A DNA stretch of 64,000 nt. Origin: Candidatus Nitrotoga sp. CP45. Lineage in GTDB: Bacteria; Pseudomonadota; Gammaproteobacteria; Burkholderiales; Gallionellaceae. Every line of letters begins with the position of its first letter. Position 1 is the stretch's first letter. Location: the NCBI GenBank assembly GCA_003402375.1, contig QFXJ01000051.1, positions 31,497 through 95,496 on the forward strand. Direction: 5' to 3'. Positions 22,069-34,156 of this stretch are shown in pieces. A program made the translations under genes and the position numbers. Below the pieces are notes generated by a model. The model was not told where the DNA came from. It was given only the letters and a program-made list of their open reading frames with translations, and searched no databases.

Positions 22069-22484
22069 TTCGGTTCTCCTTGTTTGCAACCAGGGTCACC
22101 CCAATGGCTGTCAATTTAGTCTCAGGATCAGACCAAGTTAGTGTGGTGGCGGACATAGCTAATGAATCGGGGGCGATTCACAACGGAATTTGGCCTATCT
22201 CAATGCCTCTAAGACTATTTGTTCTTAACAGGGTATTTCTGTTCGGCACCGCACATAAGGCGATTAGCAGGCGTGCTAGCCTGTTAAAAGATTTATTCTC
22301 ATTAGTCTTGAAATTTTTTTCCGGCATAGTGAAATAAGCGTTCTCAGCAAAACAGGCAAGGGAAGAGATCAATTCGCCCTTTTCTGCGACCCAGGCTGAA
22401 CCGAGCATGCTTCAGTTGATAAGTACTGGATAATGGAAATGTCTGAGTTAGACGGAGCATGATGAAAACATGGTGGAGTTGCTG
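22069..22484. other. Intergenic, no gene recognised
   Basis: About 415 bp between the decayed gene and the PLD protein. No ORF with a credible start or known repeat is seen. It must hold the promoter of the downstream gene. Confidence 0.5.
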
Positions 22485-23888
22485 ATGTGTATAAAGAAAA
22501 TCAGGTTTGTGAGCATCGCAAAATTTGCAGCAGCGTTTGGTCTGGTGTTGCTCATAGCTTGCACGTCAATCCCCACCATGGTTCCCGACATGGCGATGCA
22601 TCCAGCGCATTCTGTGCAGTTCGATGGTGCGCATGGCCCGCTGACGGCCAAACAGGGCAAGGCGATTCTCGCCAGACTAAAAAAGAATGGCGCAGATACG
22701 AATATCTTCGACCGGCATTTGGCACTGGAAGCTGAGATTGTCGGCAGCCCGCTGGTGGTGGGCAACAAGGTGGAACTGCTGGTAGATGGCCCGAAAACAT
22801 ATAACGCCATGTTCGCAGCCATAGAGAAGGCGCAGGACCATATCAACATGGAAACCTACATCATCGAAGACGACGAGATCGGGCGCCATTTCATTGATCT
22901 TTTAATCAGCAAACAACTCAGCGGCGTGCGGGTGAACCTGATTTACGATAGCGTGGGGTCGATCAGCACACCCAAAGAGTTCTTCAAGCCGCTGCAGGCA
23001 AGCGGTGTAAATGTTCTGGAATTCAACCCGGTCAATCCGCTCCTGGCGCGCAAGTACTGGCAAGTCAACCGGCGTGACCACCGCAAGCTATTGATCGTGG
23101 ATGGACAAGTCGCCTTTGTGGGTGGCATCAATATCAGCAGCGTATATTCCAGCGGTTCATCTGGTTCATTCGGCAGATTCAAATCAACCCGGGGCAATGA
23201 GCAATGGCGCGATACCCATGTGCGCATGGCAGGGCCAGTTGTCAGCGAATTCCAGAAATTGTTCATGGCGACATGGAGTGAACAGAACGGCCCGCCCTTG
23301 GACGCCAGCGTTTATTTCCCCGCACCCGCCGACAAGGGCAATGAGGTCGTGCGCGCCATCGGTAGTTCACCCCAGGAGCCTTACAGCCAGATCTATGCCA
23401 CCCTGCTGTCCGCCATTAATAGCTCGGAGACCCGGGTTTTTCTGACCAACGCCTATTTTGTCCCCGACCCTCAATTGCTTGCCGCGCTGAAGGAAGCGGC
23501 TCAGCGCGGAGTAGACGTGCGGTTGTTGTTGCCCGAAAAAATAGATTCGGCCATGGTGTATTACGCATCGCGCTCTTATTACGATGAGCTGCTGAGCGCC
23601 GGCGTAAAAATCTACCAGCGGCAGGATGCATTGTTGCATGCCAAGACTGCTCTCATTGACGGTGTGTGGTCAACCATAGGCTCAACCAATCTCGACTGGC
23701 GTAGTTTCCTCTACAATCAGGAAATAGATGCAATCATATTAGGGCAGGGTTTCGGCGCACAAATGCAGGACTTGTTCGAAAAAGACCTGGAATCGTCCAA
23801 ACTGGTGACACTCGAAGCATGGAGAAAACGCCCTATCGGCTCCCGTATCAGGGAAATGGCAGCGCGCTTGTGGGCACGCTGGCTGTAA
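22485..23888 (+). CDS. Cardiolipin synthase-like phospholipase D family protein
   Basis: A PLD-superfamily protein of 467 residues from ATG 22485, which has GGAG eight bases upstream (an ATG at 22470 is possible). The N-terminus is a lipoprotein-like signal (FGLVLLIACTS), suggesting membrane attachment. Two HxK(x4)D motifs form the active site: HRKLLIVDG in the first half and HAKTALIDG in the second. These enzymes make cardiolipin by phosphatidyl transfer; the layout resembles ClsB/ClsC-like proteins more than the ClsA type, which has two N-terminal membrane helices. It stands alone. Confidence 0.82.
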   Translation: MCIKKIRFVSIAKFAAAFGLVLLIACTSIPTMVPDMAMHPAHSVQFDGAHGPLTAKQGKAILARLKKNGADTNIFDRHLALEAEIVGSPLVVGNKVELLVDGPKTYNAMFAAIEKAQDHINMETYIIEDDEIGRHFIDLLISKQLSGVRVNLIYDSVGSISTPKEFFKPLQASGVNVLEFNPVNPLLARKYWQVNRRDHRKLLIVDGQVAFVGGINISSVYSSGSSGSFGRFKSTRGNEQWRDTHVRMAGPVVSEFQKLFMATWSEQNGPPLDASVYFPAPADKGNEVVRAIGSSPQEPYSQIYATLLSAINSSETRVFLTNAYFVPDPQLLAALKEAAQRGVDVRLLLPEKIDSAMVYYASRSYYDELLSAGVKIYQRQDALLHAKTALIDGVWSTIGSTNLDWRSFLYNQEIDAIILGQGFGAQMQDLFEKDLESSKLVTLEAWRKRPIGSRIREMAARLWARWL

Positions 23889-25489: not shown

Positions 25490-26011
25490 TGGTGTTCCTC
25501 TATACAGAGTAAATAATGTCACGAAATTTCCCAAGTCCTCACCCCGATCAAGAACCTTGAATACCTCCAGAGCCACAGATACACCCGAAACCACACATTA
25601 ACAATCCGCCGCCTTTCGATCCAGATTCTTCCCCATAACAGGAGAAAATGGAAAAGCCTGACGACGAAAGCAAGACATAATTCGAGGAGTAGTTGGAGGC
25701 TGGATTATTGAAAATAAAAAGATGCAACAAAACAAAAAGTAGCTGGGCGGACAGGTATACGTTAGCGCTTTACCTGTCGCGCCTTTTAACTTTTAGTATA
25801 TTTTCCAGGTGCATCTCCCCAACGTTTTTGATCAACTACTGGACCATAATTGTTATGGCTCCAGCTTCAACTCGTTAAACCATTTCAGTACTCCAGCAAG
25901 TGAGCCACGTTTATTTTCCATTGTAGCCAATCGGTTGTTGTTGCTATTACTATAAACAGCATAAACATACTTGCCAGGATGATAATAAGCGTGGTGCTTA
26001 TTTCCAGCCCG
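25490..26011. other. Intergenic, no credible gene
   Basis: About 520 bp between the CHRD terminator and the second RAYT copy. Only short frames are present; a minus-strand Gly/Cys-rich frame (25548-25730) begins with TTG and has no ribosome site. Confidence 0.45.
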
Positions 26012-26038
26012 GTTGGGCTGAATGAAATGAAGCCCAAC
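26012..26038 (-). repeat. REP palindrome, left flank of RAYT copy 2
   Basis: Exact reverse complement of the REP at 24608-24634, with arms GTTGGGCT/AGCCCAAC. It directly precedes the second decayed RAYT copy. Confidence 0.8.
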
Positions 26039-26054
26039 ATCACAGAGGAATGAA

Positions 26055-26434
26055 CACACGCGTTGCCAACGTGCCGATGCAGCGTGAAATACATACTTTT
26101 TTACTGTTAATCTGGCTGAACGGCGCTCCGATTTATTGGTGCGGCATATTGATGATTTGTGCGCAGTCATGAAAACGGTGAAAGACGCACATCCGTTTGC
26201 CATCCTGGAGATGGCGGTGCTACCCGAACACCTGCATGCGATATGGTGTTTACCACCGGGCGATGCCGACTACCCGATGCGTTGGTCGCTCATCAAAGTC
26301 GGGTTTTCCCGGCGGCTGGCAAGAGGCGAGCACATTCGAGCCAGCCGCCAAGCCAAGCGCGAGCGCGGCATCTGGCAGCATAGGATTGGGGTGTGCAAAT
26401 AGGTGATGGCGTAGATGGTTATGGTGAACGGTGA
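26055..26434 (+). pseudogene. RAYT, decayed copy 2 with internal deletion
   Basis: Closely similar to copy 1: TVNLAERRSDLLVRHIDDL, AVLPEHLHAIWCLPPGDAD, RASRQAKRERGIWQ are readable. The ATG is lost (ACG), a shift is needed near the start, and the part encoding RRYWEHQIRDE to ERGMAAS, present in copy 1, has been deleted, joining GIWQ to HRIGVC. The intact ERGIWQ here shows that copy 1 diverged independently. Confidence 0.8.
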
Positions 26435-26437
26435 AAT

Positions 26438-26464
26438 GTTGGGCTTCATTTCATCTGGCTTAAC
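26438..26464 (+). repeat. REP palindrome, right flank of RAYT copy 2
   Basis: GTTGGGCTTCATTTCATC then TGGCTTAAC: the same REP with a slightly degenerate right arm. It sits 106 bp before the dual-OB/DUF488/DUF4326 operon. Confidence 0.75.
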
Positions 26465-26569
26465 CTACTAAGCCATTGGTTTTATATAAAAGCTGTATCA
26501 GTTGAAGACACTGGTGTAGGATAATCGTACTCAAATCGAGCACGCCGTGCATAAATTACTGAGAGAGAT

Positions 26570-27283
26570 ATGCGAATAGTTGTTACTGATCTAACGCGAT
26601 TCCAAAACCAAGAGTTGCTCTGTCTCGCAGGCCTTACAGAAGATGGGCAGCAGTGTATACGCCCATTATCAGCTTCCAAACCAGGCTATCTTTCATTCAC
26701 AATGTGCAAAAAGTTGAATATTCTCCCTGGCACAATTCTGGATGGTACTTTTACCACACCTCTACATATTGATGCGCCTCATATTGAAGATATGCATTAT
26801 TCAGATTTAAAAACAGTAGGCGCAGTCGATTCGACTGAATTTCAATCCATCCTAGAGAAATCTTCCACCACATCAATCAAATCTGGCTTTGGTTGCACGA
26901 GCAAACCAACTGATAAGGTATTAACCACCCCGCCCGCCAAGTCAATCATAACTCTGAAGCTCAATCCAAGACAGTTTCAAGTTGTTCAAAATAAATTCGA
27001 TAACGAAACAATTAAAGCCCATCTGACTGACAGTGATGGTTTAAAGTTGAGCTTCCTTTCAATCTCAGATTTGGGCTTCTACGTGAACGTAGGTCAGTCC
27101 GCGACTCGAAAAATTAGCGCCAAAGAAATTACAGAGTTTATTCAAGAACAAGATGAGCTATTTGTCCGTCTCGGTCTGGGCAGAAAACATATAAGTGGTG
27201 ATGGCAGGGAAGGCTATTGGATGCAAGTTAACGGGATATATACTTTCCCAGATTATCAAAAAATCGTGCGCACATATGAATGA
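26570..27283 (+). CDS. Dual-OB-like domain protein, first gene of a three-gene operon
   Basis: A 237-residue AT-rich gene with GAGAGA before the ATG. It begins MRIVVTDLTRFQNQELLCLAGL and has the pattern GQQCIRPL, a linker, a Ser/Thr-rich middle, and a C-terminal SISDLGFYVN / GREGYWMQVNGIYTFPDY. This resembles the uncharacterised family described as dual OB-fold domains, which would be expected to bind nucleic acid or nucleotides. That family call is from memory and moderate. The gene overlaps the DUF488 gene by 8 bp, so the two are probably made together. Confidence 0.6.
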   Translation: MRIVVTDLTRFQNQELLCLAGLTEDGQQCIRPLSASKPGYLSFTMCKKLNILPGTILDGTFTTPLHIDAPHIEDMHYSDLKTVGAVDSTEFQSILEKSSTTSIKSGFGCTSKPTDKVLTTPPAKSIITLKLNPRQFQVVQNKFDNETIKAHLTDSDGLKLSFLSISDLGFYVNVGQSATRKISAKEITEFIQEQDELFVRLGLGRKHISGDGREGYWMQVNGIYTFPDYQKIVRTYE

Positions 27284-27731
27284 CATGGAAGAGATATTCA
27301 CAATCGGCTTTACAGCAAAACGAGCAGAAGATTTTTTCAAGCTATTAATAAACAAAAATGTTAAGACAGTTCTTGATGTTCGTCTAAATAACAAATCCCA
27401 ACTGTCTGGATTTGCAAAAAAAGATGACTTAAGGTTTTTCTTAAGAGAATTTGGTGGAATTGCCTATATAGAGGCGAGAGACCTCGCGCCAGAAGCTGAG
27501 ATTTTAAAACGTTACCAACGTAAAGAAATATCTTGGGAAGAATATGCTGATCGTTATTTGAATCTCATTAGCAAGAGAAACGTTGAACGGTTGATTGAAA
27601 AAAATCAAGTAATTGGAAGTTGTCTATTATGTAGTGAACATCTGCCTCACCACTGCCACAGGCGGCTGGCAGCTGAATATCTGAATACTCAATGGGGCAC
27701 TGCCCTAAAAATCACTCATCTAGTGAAGTAA
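27276..27731 (+). CDS. DUF488 domain-containing protein
   Basis: A 151-residue protein from an ATG at 27276, overlapping the previous stop (another ATG at 27285 is possible). The DUF488 features are clear: FTIGFTAKRAEDFFKLL at the start, TVLDVRLNNKSQLSGFAKKDDL, and the C-terminal cysteine/histidine cluster CLLCSEHLPHHCHRRLAAEYL. The conserved Cys/His residues suggest a metal- or thiol-dependent reaction, but no DUF488 activity can be assigned here. It sits between a dual-OB-like gene and a DUF4326 gene, 4 bp from the latter. Confidence 0.85.
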   Translation: MNDMEEIFTIGFTAKRAEDFFKLLINKNVKTVLDVRLNNKSQLSGFAKKDDLRFFLREFGGIAYIEARDLAPEAEILKRYQRKEISWEEYADRYLNLISKRNVERLIEKNQVIGSCLLCSEHLPHHCHRRLAAEYLNTQWGTALKITHLVK

Positions 27732-27735
27732 TAGC

Positions 27736-28419
27736 GTGCAAACTGAAAACACAAAAACACATTTACTGATTGCCTTACCTCGCTTGTTTTGCTTTAAGGC
27801 TATTTTTGACAAGACCGTCAGTTCAGTCCTTGATGGCCTTGGAGATGCGGATGTTTCGCTTGTTTCTGACAATGCAGGTAAAGCAAGGAAGTTGTTGGAA
27901 TCCAAAGGACTTACCCCACACGAAGTAAAAATTTCAACCAAGCTAGACGCTAAAAACGCCCTAAAGAAATACAGTCATGTACTCGTATTTTGGGATGGTG
28001 AAGAATTAACGGATATTATTTATTACGCTAAATATTTCAACAAACCCATCCGAATAGTTCCAGTACAAATAACTAAGGTCAGAAACAAAGACCATGACGA
28101 AGCGTTCGACGTTTATATTGGAAGAAAAACCCCGTGGGGCAATCCTTTTCCCATTGAACATGATGCACATGGCGACAAGCGAAAGGAGGTCATTGAAAAA
28201 TTTAAAGTTTACTTTCAAGAGGAATTTATTGATAAACCCGACAACCTAAAACATCTGCTTACTCTTCGAGGAATGAGACTTGGTTGTCACTGTAAGCCGT
28301 TGCCCTGTCACGGGGATGTCATTGCTGACTTCATTAATAATTACTTTGACATTGCCGAACAACTCGATCAAATCGGAGAGAGTCAAACAAATAAGCCGAA
28401 GGTTTCCGAACATGTGTAA
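27736..28419 (+). CDS. SLOG/DUF2493-like domain fused to DUF4326
   Basis: A 227-residue protein starting with GTG 4 bp after the DUF488 stop. Residues about 8-100 look like a Rossmann-type nucleotide-binding domain related to DUF2493/SLOG (VSLVSDNAGKARKLLESKGL, then HVLVFWDGEELTDIIYYAKYFNKPIRIV). Residues 115-205 are DUF4326: DVYIGRKTPWGNPFPI and LGCHCKPLPCHGDVIADFI, with its conserved cysteines. No standard Shine-Dalgarno is seen, consistent with coupled translation. Family knowledge: DUF4326 is uncharacterised and turns up in phage and accessory contexts. Nucleotide binding by the N-terminal domain is an inference. Confidence 0.78.
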   Translation: MQTENTKTHLLIALPRLFCFKAIFDKTVSSVLDGLGDADVSLVSDNAGKARKLLESKGLTPHEVKISTKLDAKNALKKYSHVLVFWDGEELTDIIYYAKYFNKPIRIVPVQITKVRNKDHDEAFDVYIGRKTPWGNPFPIEHDAHGDKRKEVIEKFKVYFQEEFIDKPDNLKHLLTLRGMRLGCHCKPLPCHGDVIADFINNYFDIAEQLDQIGESQTNKPKVSEHV

Positions 28420-28447
28420 TCGAGAATCGATGGGGTTAGGCCTGTAA

Positions 28448-28540
28448 GCTGGGCTGAATGAAATGAAGCCTAAACATCACAGGCTACGGATGAAAAGATA
28501 CTTTACCGACGTGCCGATACAGCGGAAAGCACATGCAATC
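28448..28540 (+). pseudogene. REP plus 5' fragment of a third RAYT copy
   Basis: A degenerate REP (GCTGGGCTGAATGAAATG, then AAGCCTAAAC, 28448-28475) is followed by about 65 bp matching the first codons of the RAYT copies (ACCGACGTGCCGATACAGCGG). The rest of the gene is missing. It closes the right side of the dual-OB/DUF488/DUF4326 island. Confidence 0.65.
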
Positions 28541-32986: not shown

Positions 32987-34156
32987 ATGAGTGTGCCAGA
33001 AAAGCTTGGCTTGATTCTGACCGGAGGAGGGGCGCGTGTCGCTTATCAGGTGGGCGTGCTAAAGGCCATCGCCGAATTTTTGCCGCGTCATGCACATAAC
33101 CCATTTCCTATTATCTGCGGAACCTCGTCAGGTTCGCTTAATGCGGTGACGCTTGCGGTGAATGCCCGATCTTTTCGCAAGGGGGTCAAATATCTTCTTA
33201 ACATCTGGAAAAATTCTCGCGTTGACCATATTTATCGCACCGACCCGGTTGGCGTTTTAAAGAACAGTTCGCGCTGGTTTGCAGGGCTAATCTTGAGTAG
33301 CATGGGTATAAATAAGTTGAACCAGGTATCGCTGCTTGATAATGCGCCGATGGTGGCGATGCTGGAAGCAACGCTGCCGTATGAAAAAATCCAGGAGAAT
33401 ATTGATGTGGGACACCTGTACGCACTGAGCATCAATGCTTCGGGCTATGGTTCGGGGTGCTCCGTGACTTTTTACCAGGGAGCGGAGGACATTCCACCCT
33501 GGAATCGGGCGCATCGTCTAGGCATTCCAACCAAGATCGACCCCAAACATTTATTAGCCTCTTCAGCCATTCCGTTTATTTTTCCAGCGGTACTCATCAA
33601 CCGTGAGTATTTTGGCGATGGCTCGATGCGCCAGATCGCGCCTATCAGCTCTGCGCTACATCTGGGCGCTACCCGCGTGCTAGTCATCGGCTTAGGCCAT
33701 AACGAGGAGGAACAACCTAACCGTAGCGATCAATGTGATTATCCTTCGCTAGCGCAGATTGGCGGCCATCTTATGGATAGTATTTTCCTCGACAGTCTGG
33801 AGGTGGATTTGGAGCGGGTGCAGCGCATCAATCATTCGATTGGAATGTTGTCAGAAGATGTTCAGGAGCAAATAAATTGGCGTCATGTCGATGTCCTGGT
33901 GATTAAGCCTAGCCAGGCTATTGAGCAAATTGCTGAGCGTTATGCCATGAATTTGCCGTGGACTATCCGTTTTTTATTGCGCGGGATAGGCGCGATGCGC
34001 CGTAGCGGGGCAAATCTGATGAGTTACCTGTTGTTTGAAAAGAATTTTTGTCGTGCGATGATTGAGCTGGGATACCAGGATGCATTGAAACAGAAGCAGG
34101 AAATCCTGGCTTTTATAAATCAGCGCGAAAAAACGGTGGAAAGTTTGCCGCAATGA
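32987..34156 (+). CDS. Patatin-like phospholipase
   Basis: A 389-residue lipid acyl hydrolase with a Ser-Asp dyad. The oxyanion-hole glycine run is LTGGGARVAYQVG (residues 11-23), the nucleophile elbow is GTSSGS (GxSxG), and the catalytic Asp lies in FGDGSMRQIAPIS. No signal peptide, so cytoplasmic or peripheral. A Shine-Dalgarno GGAGG lies upstream. It overlaps birA by 4 bp (ATGA), a tight operon with birA and coaX that is unexpected by function. Confidence 0.9.
   Translation: MSVPEKLGLILTGGGARVAYQVGVLKAIAEFLPRHAHNPFPIICGTSSGSLNAVTLAVNARSFRKGVKYLLNIWKNSRVDHIYRTDPVGVLKNSSRWFAGLILSSMGINKLNQVSLLDNAPMVAMLEATLPYEKIQENIDVGHLYALSINASGYGSGCSVTFYQGAEDIPPWNRAHRLGIPTKIDPKHLLASSAIPFIFPAVLINREYFGDGSMRQIAPISSALHLGATRVLVIGLGHNEEEQPNRSDQCDYPSLAQIGGHLMDSIFLDSLEVDLERVQRINHSIGMLSEDVQEQINWRHVDVLVIKPSQAIEQIAERYAMNLPWTIRFLLRGIGAMRRSGANLMSYLLFEKNFCRAMIELGYQDALKQKQEILAFINQREKTVESLPQ

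Follow-up and report, generated by a model that had tools for sequence, protein, structure and literature searches.

A three-gene DuOB, DUF488 and mSLOG-DUF4326 operon of Candidatus Nitrotoga as a putative branch of the candidate defence system PDC-M45

Upstream of hrpA in a 64,000-nucleotide stretch of contig QFXJ01000051.1 of Candidatus Nitrotoga sp. CP45, hereafter the window, three adjoining genes encode a dual OB (DuOB) protein, a DUF488 protein and a fusion of a minimal SLOG (mSLOG) domain with DUF4326. We propose, with about even confidence in this reading as a whole, that they are one conserved operon and a likely horizontally transferred anti-phage system, in which DuOB, as a predicted nucleic acid binder, would recruit two predicted cysteine enzymes to invading nucleic acid. 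Across genomes the linkage of the three genes exceeds chance, and the profiles that the proteins match and fail to match place the operon as a putative unlisted branch of the candidate defence system PDC-M45. No published function for the three-gene operon was found in the literature searched.

Results

The three genes are intact open reading frames (ORFs), as a preliminary description of the stretch had stated, joined by an 8-bp overlap (27276-27283) and a 4-bp gap (27732-27735) (Table 1). The domain families named there were recovered for all three proteins by Pfam search, the DuOB match lying below the family cut-off: the first protein matched DuOB (PF22557) with an E-value of 1.1e-4 and 22.7 bits, under the 27-bit cut-off, and PF22557.3 is annotated on 12 of its 13 closest homologues (77-87% identity). 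The second protein matched DUF488 (PF04343, E 9.5e-24) and the 'active' DUF488-N3a (PF22751, E 1.9e-10, 41.5 bits, above the 27-bit cut-off), and the third both mSLOG (PF22565, E 8.6e-10, 39.2 bits, above 27 bits) and DUF4326 (PF14216, E 5.4e-23, 81.9 bits, above 25 bits). The Pfam families DuOB, mSLOG and DUF488-N3 presumably stem from the work of Burroughs and Aravind in 2023. The NCBIfam search gave zero matches for the window proteins, and sequence searches with the three profiles brought up no credible solved structure, the lone row, 2ygg at E 0.71, being a chance match. The window's DuOB belongs to a subfamily, here called window-type, with the motif signature TDLTRF...CIRP...GYWxQVNGIYTFP.

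A DuOB alignment scan of named genomes, with the parts then called by profiles, yielded 69 DuOB loci, and in 55 of them DuOB, a DUF488 of the window's kind (DUF488C) and a third gene lie side by side on one strand. Relatives of the operon are spread over many phyla of bacteria. The third gene is mSLOG-DUF4326 in 19 and a divergent second DUF488 of about 200 aa (DUF488B) in 36; both occur together in none. Four of the 55 trios have a partial or two-frame DuOB match (L057, at a contig end, L060, L062 and L069), and L004 and L005 are near-duplicate loci that differ at 195 places only. Gene order is DUF488B-DUF488C-DuOB in eight loci, five from Campylobacterota plus L002, L003 and L011. The 14 loci without a trio include contig-end cuts (L038, L061, L064), fragments (L046, L059, L067, L068) and solo or two-gene forms (L055, and L035, L041, L042, L045, L051 and L053 from one Chlorobiaceae site). 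Because homologues keep the genes together, rather than rarely co-occurring, the linkage is more than chance; the earlier claim that the three belong together is borne out, and their joint action gains support from it. The Chlorobiaceae chromosomal site (L026, L035, L041, L042, L044, L045, L051, L053), with the same neighbours by eye, carries DuOB-DUF488B-DUF488C, DuOB with DUF488B, or DuOB alone, which reads as genes gained or lost step by step at one position.

In the reverse direction, a survey of 369 same-class genomes at a DUF488C threshold of E < 1e-50 found this protein in 11, with an intact adjoining DuOB in nine and one in pieces in G042; no DuOB was found beside the DUF488C of G357. 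Two of the nine intact DuOBs were called by the window-type profile and seven are classical, five of these confirmed by Pfam (E 2.5e-46 to 4.6e-70) and two by a local profile. The fusion mSLOG-DUF4326 adjoins DUF488C in six of the seven same-class genomes that carry it, DUF488C being truncated in one (G183); in the seventh, G042, a contig break separates the two genes and the fusion is incomplete, a fragment. A weaker DUF4326 match stands alone in two further genomes of the class, and 60 of the 369 give a DUF488 match of some kind. A distant, lone DuOB-like protein (L125:5657-6385, genome G177; window-type profile E 8e-37, no Pfam match at 0.1) adjoins, by eye, a toxin-antitoxin-like pair.

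The models of PADLOC system PDC-M45 were assigned by matching: PDC-M45A corresponds to classical DuOB (E 3.8e-96 for that of locus L119), PDC-M45B to DUF488B (E 5.6e-91, same locus) and PDC-M45C to DUF488C. The window's DUF488 (P0002) matches PDC-M45C with E 3.5e-59. No PADLOC match at E <= 1 was obtained for the window's DuOB (P0001), PDC-M45A included, or for its mSLOG-DUF4326, PDC-M45B included; at 0.001, PDC-M45A also fails to match the window-type DuOBs from loci L033 and L025, and it does match two classical DuOBs. Since neither the first nor the third protein is matched by a PDC-M45 model, the operon is, as judged by these profiles, an unlisted branch of that candidate system. According to a 2026 paper (PMC12988326), PDCs are unpublished putative candidates from guilt-by-embedding, mostly without validation, and no mention of 'PDC-M45' was found in the literature searched.

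The Cys/His clusters reported for DUF488 and DUF4326 are conserved. In DUF488, C116, C119, C127, H128 and R129 are identical in all 41 aligned rows, the window's included; in DUF4326, C184 is kept in 59 of 59 rows and H185, C186, C191 and H192 in at least 90%. The DUF488B sisters (15 aligned) keep only C113, C121, H122 and R123, with nothing at the C116 position, and in the AlphaFold2 model of the fusion (predicted local distance difference test, pLDDT, 91.1) the DUF4326 loop lies between strand 181-184 and helix 192-218. That these are mere binding clusters is less supported, as conservation across DUF488B, DUF488C and DUF4326 suits an active-site loop better; the alignments suggest that they are probably enzyme loops. 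A zinc-finger reading was set aside because DUF488B keeps fewer residues, without a C116 equivalent, and because of the position of the DUF4326 loop between strand and helix.

The DuOB model (pLDDT 93.7) has DNA-binding tandem-OB proteins as its best-ranked structural matches, which are weak, at about 10% identity. No rhodanese stands among the rows of the VIA list of the third protein, a list that covers mostly the mSLOG half. A kinship of DUF4326 with the rhodanese-phosphatase superfamily is stated in print. In profile comparison, hhalign gave 12.0% for DUF488-rhodanese, below significance and at the DVR strand, and for DUF488-DUF4326, at the Cys loop, 8.7%, also below significance, and 20% in another run; DUF488-RapZ-C reached 1.1%, DUF4326-RapZ-C 0.2% and DUF4326-rhodanese 0.8%, with unrelated controls at 0.1-1.5%, a range that the DUF488-rhodanese and DUF488-DUF4326 values exceed. 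RapZ-C and rhodanese are reported to be kin, and since this pair itself reached just 1.8%, the test has little power.

Two DuOB subfamilies and two third genes occur in all four combinations: window-type DuOB with mSLOG-DUF4326 (n=19) or DUF488B (n=36) in the named genomes, and classical DuOB with mSLOG-DUF4326 (n=3) or DUF488B (n=4) in the class survey. In a DUF488C tree built from 64 rows, in which phyla are intermixed, the fewest changes are four for the third gene and five for the DuOB subfamily. These counts lean on a partly resolved tree: 19 of its 61 inner branches are unresolved, and the well-supported ones by themselves require just two or three changes per label. The four labels jointly need nine changes versus 22.9 in shuffles, and are therefore clustered yet not fixed.

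Some relatives of the operon are found in defence neighbourhoods. In G026 a DuOB-DUF488B-DUF488C trio lies inside a bacteriophage exclusion (BREX) locus, flanked on one side by a PglX-like Eco57I methylase and on the other by PglZ and BrxL. A PADLOC scan (E <= 1e-10) of 224 of 249 chosen neighbour genes, each no shorter than 150 aa and no more than 6 kb away, with a maximum of four per locus, matched 204 families among 119 neighbours and 198 among 105, versus 22 among 119 control genes taken from 18 arbitrarily chosen segments of genomes of the same class; as the families are redundant and the control comes from one class, the difference is an excess and not a rate. Eight of ten hand-picked neighbours were a type I restriction endonuclease, OLD, GajB, GajA, a type III methylase, HsdS, an HmaB-like protein and a type I methylase, and many other trio neighbours are housekeeping-like by eye. 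In the window, one of ten neighbouring ORFs matched PADLOC, the 472-aa ORF with the DrmC model (6e-17), probably a generic phospholipase-D match. An association with defence islands or phages is seen in some relatives (BREX, Gabija, restriction-modification, Hma-like and phage genes), and the window's own neighbourhood is not a defence island. Directly upstream of the trio in Neptuniibacter (L047:3338-9911) stand ORFs of 1482 and 706 aa without a PADLOC match at 1e-10, possibly another unlisted system.

Trios are also carried on viral sequences. The IMG/VR database gave two loci in the DuOB scan and, in the fusion scan, 486 loci, of which the best 80 were kept. Twelve loci (L182-L193), with fusion or DuOB near full length, contain the full trio in 11 cases, L191 beginning at DUF488C; the other 70 viral loci, from the best 80 of 486, have DUF4326 without the remaining genes in the stretch examined. 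Ten neighbours in five viral loci were scanned for families: portal, terminase or capsid families lie near the trios of L185, L188 and L189, and replication and anti-repressor families near that of L187; the neighbours in L184 and L186 have no assigned function. From gene order we take L188 and L189 to be P2-like. P2-like phages are described as a hotspot for antiviral cargo (PMC9122126). The viral contig L190 (L190:13-1787) carries a rearranged trio that starts with mSLOG-DUF4326, followed by classical DuOB and DUF488C. The window's DuOB (P0001) was not matched by any of 50,697 phage or 72,556 plasmid records, and part of the third protein (P0003), DUF4326 in the phage rows listed, matches 1854 of the 50,697 phage records, one over at least 80% of its length. 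In 12 of the 20 phage rows listed, such as that of Acinetobacter phage Acj61 (nrdA.1), the region that matches DUF4326 is annotated as nrdA(.1), ribonucleotide reductase or thymidylate synthase, a hint that the substrate could be a nucleotide.

Within the genus, DUF488C was found in one of the 19 genomes examined, the window's own, and was absent from the 18 others, four of which are less than 90% complete; five of the 18 have a weak DUF488 match. The hrpA-upstream DNA of 8 of the 18 congener loci aligns with the window from 28434-28459, just past the operon, and in the remaining loci the alignment does not start before 28503; in L161 this junction is directly adjoined by transposase-like DNA. 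The operon interior has no match in any of the 18 congener loci, each with about 1.5 kb or less upstream, and judged by these alignments the place of the operon upstream of hrpA is empty in the congeners. Repeats of 24 bases (96% identical) and 45 bases (73% identical) lie on either side of the operon; the flanking repeat, common to transposase remnants, is also present in the hrpA-upstream DNA of several congeners.

As had been noted, the operon is AT-rich, with a GC fraction of 0.399 versus 0.542 for hrpA and 0.497 for the whole window, and about 1.3% of all 1850-base segments of the window, the operon's own counted in, are equally AT-rich. The statement that everything around is decayed has to be withdrawn: hrpA (1253 aa), a 472-aa ORF and a 389-aa ORF are all open. 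Broken-looking stretches at about 24.0-24.6 kb and 25.9-26.5 kb are, read by eye, remnants of REP-associated tyrosine transposases.

Table 1. Features of the operon and its surroundings, in window coordinates
Feature	Position	Strand	Remarks
Gene 1, DuOB protein, window-type subfamily	26570..27283	+	237 aa; ORF call, Pfam, alignment
Gene 2, DUF488 protein, 'active DUF488-N3' kind (DUF488C)	27276..27731	+	151 aa
DUF488 conserved loop, C116 to R129 (CLLCSEHLPHHCHR)	27621..27662	+	probable active site; alignment
Gene 3, mSLOG-DUF4326 fusion	27736..28419	+	227 aa, GTG start
mSLOG domain of gene 3	27760..28080	+	residues 9-115; Rossmann-like, likely nucleotide-binding
DUF4326 domain of gene 3	28084..28326	+	residues 117-197; Pfam E 5.4e-23
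DUF4326 loop CHCKPLPCH	28285..28311	+	residues 184-192; probable active site; alignment, AlphaFold2 model
Left copy of operon-flanking repeat	26011..26094	.	also inverted at 26436-26465
Right copy of operon-flanking repeat	28438..28534	.	
Open 472-aa ORF near operon	22470-23888		
Open 389-aa ORF near operon	32987-34156		

Discussion

An anti-phage function of the operon is likely, as far as sequence comparison can indicate. The earlier guess of a nucleic acid-handling or defence system is favoured by the linkage, the defence neighbours of relatives, the phage-borne copies and the accessory presence, and is not favoured by the window's own neighbours, which are not defence genes. In such a system DuOB would bind phage DNA, its ends or single-stranded parts, and the loops of DUF488 and DUF4326 would bear catalytic cysteines of the rhodanese-phosphatase type, with which the two enzymes might transfer or remove phosphate or sugar-phosphate at DNA or RNA ends or on a nucleotide; mSLOG may sense or position the nucleotide, and the net outcome would be that the use of phage DNA is blocked. 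A pair of such cysteine enzymes seems required because DUF488B replaces mSLOG-DUF4326 in the sister form. Burroughs and Aravind reportedly described in 2023 a RapZ-C - DUF488 - DUF4326 clade and predicted DNA-end-processing conflict systems, and we take the DUF488 and DUF4326 of the operon to lie inside this clade. Tentatively, and as a possibility to which we attach limited confidence, the exchange of modules could indicate a combinatorial immune system, in which an invariant DUF488 cysteine enzyme is joined by interchangeable DNA readers (the two DuOB subfamilies) and partner enzymes (DUF488B or a nucleotide-sensing mSLOG-DUF4326). Jointly they would rewrite phosphate or sugar groups at the ends of phage nucleic acid, a new chemistry unlike restriction, phosphorothioation or NAD depletion.

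Among the alternatives, a nucleotide-signal system survives best, and we consider it unlikely. Here mSLOG and DUF4326 would sense and break down a signal derived from NAD or ADP-ribose, partnered by DUF488 and with DuOB serving as nucleic acid trigger, so that a small molecule and not DNA would be the substrate. The Rossmann-like nature of mSLOG and the nrdA(.1), ribonucleotide reductase and thymidylate synthase annotations in 12 of the 20 phage rows listed agree with such a role; however, by eye, the neighbour list shows no additional gene, an NADase or cyclase for instance, that recurs beside the trio, and the sister form with DUF488B does without mSLOG. Less probable still is a function, e.g. 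anti-restriction or DNA-end protection, by which the operon helps a phage or mobile element and not the host: trios near phage structural or replication genes, the 1854 phage records that match part of the third protein, and the repeats around the operon would fit, but several trios adjoin host defence systems and DuOB itself has no match in the 50,697 phage records.

We regard as quite doubtful a sulfur-transfer system in which rhodanese-like cysteines thiolate host or phage nucleic acid, comparable to DNA phosphorothioation. It would account for the two Cys-rich loops, for trios adjoining modification systems and for the published rhodanese-phosphatase kinship of DUF4326, yet no Dnd or Ssp family is among the best 25 of 204 and the best 25 of 198 neighbour families, and the loops end in CH[R/G], unlike what we take to be the sulfurtransferase loop. 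A non-defence accessory operon for DNA repair or nucleotide metabolism, equally improbable, draws on the many housekeeping-like neighbours, the window's own non-defence neighbours and the DUF488 matches in 60 of 369 genomes, but is at odds with the sporadic presence (1/19 in the genus), the mixing of phyla on the DUF488C tree and the excess of defence neighbours over the control.

If the anti-phage reading holds, three uncharacterised protein families would share one testable function. The layout of one constant protein with swappable companions points to DUF488C as the protein to purify first and predicts that readers and partners are exchangeable. Defence scanners based on PDC-M45 would score one of three genes in the window's form, and this branch has therefore probably been overlooked.

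The operon and PDC-M45 have in common the constant DUF488C, a predicted dual-OB first gene and a second partner of DUF488/DUF4326 type, but the window's DuOB is not recognised by the PDC-M45A model, and mSLOG-DUF4326 stands in third place instead of DUF488B. BREX, Gabija, Hma and restriction-modification islands are host neighbourhoods of some trio relatives; no component common to these systems and the trio was seen, and the trio looks like embedded cargo. The HIN-200 DNA sensors, RPA and baculovirus LEF-3, to which the DuOB model is matched, have tandem OB folds that bind nucleic acid, although the match is weak, at about 10% identity, and likely reflects just a common general arrangement.
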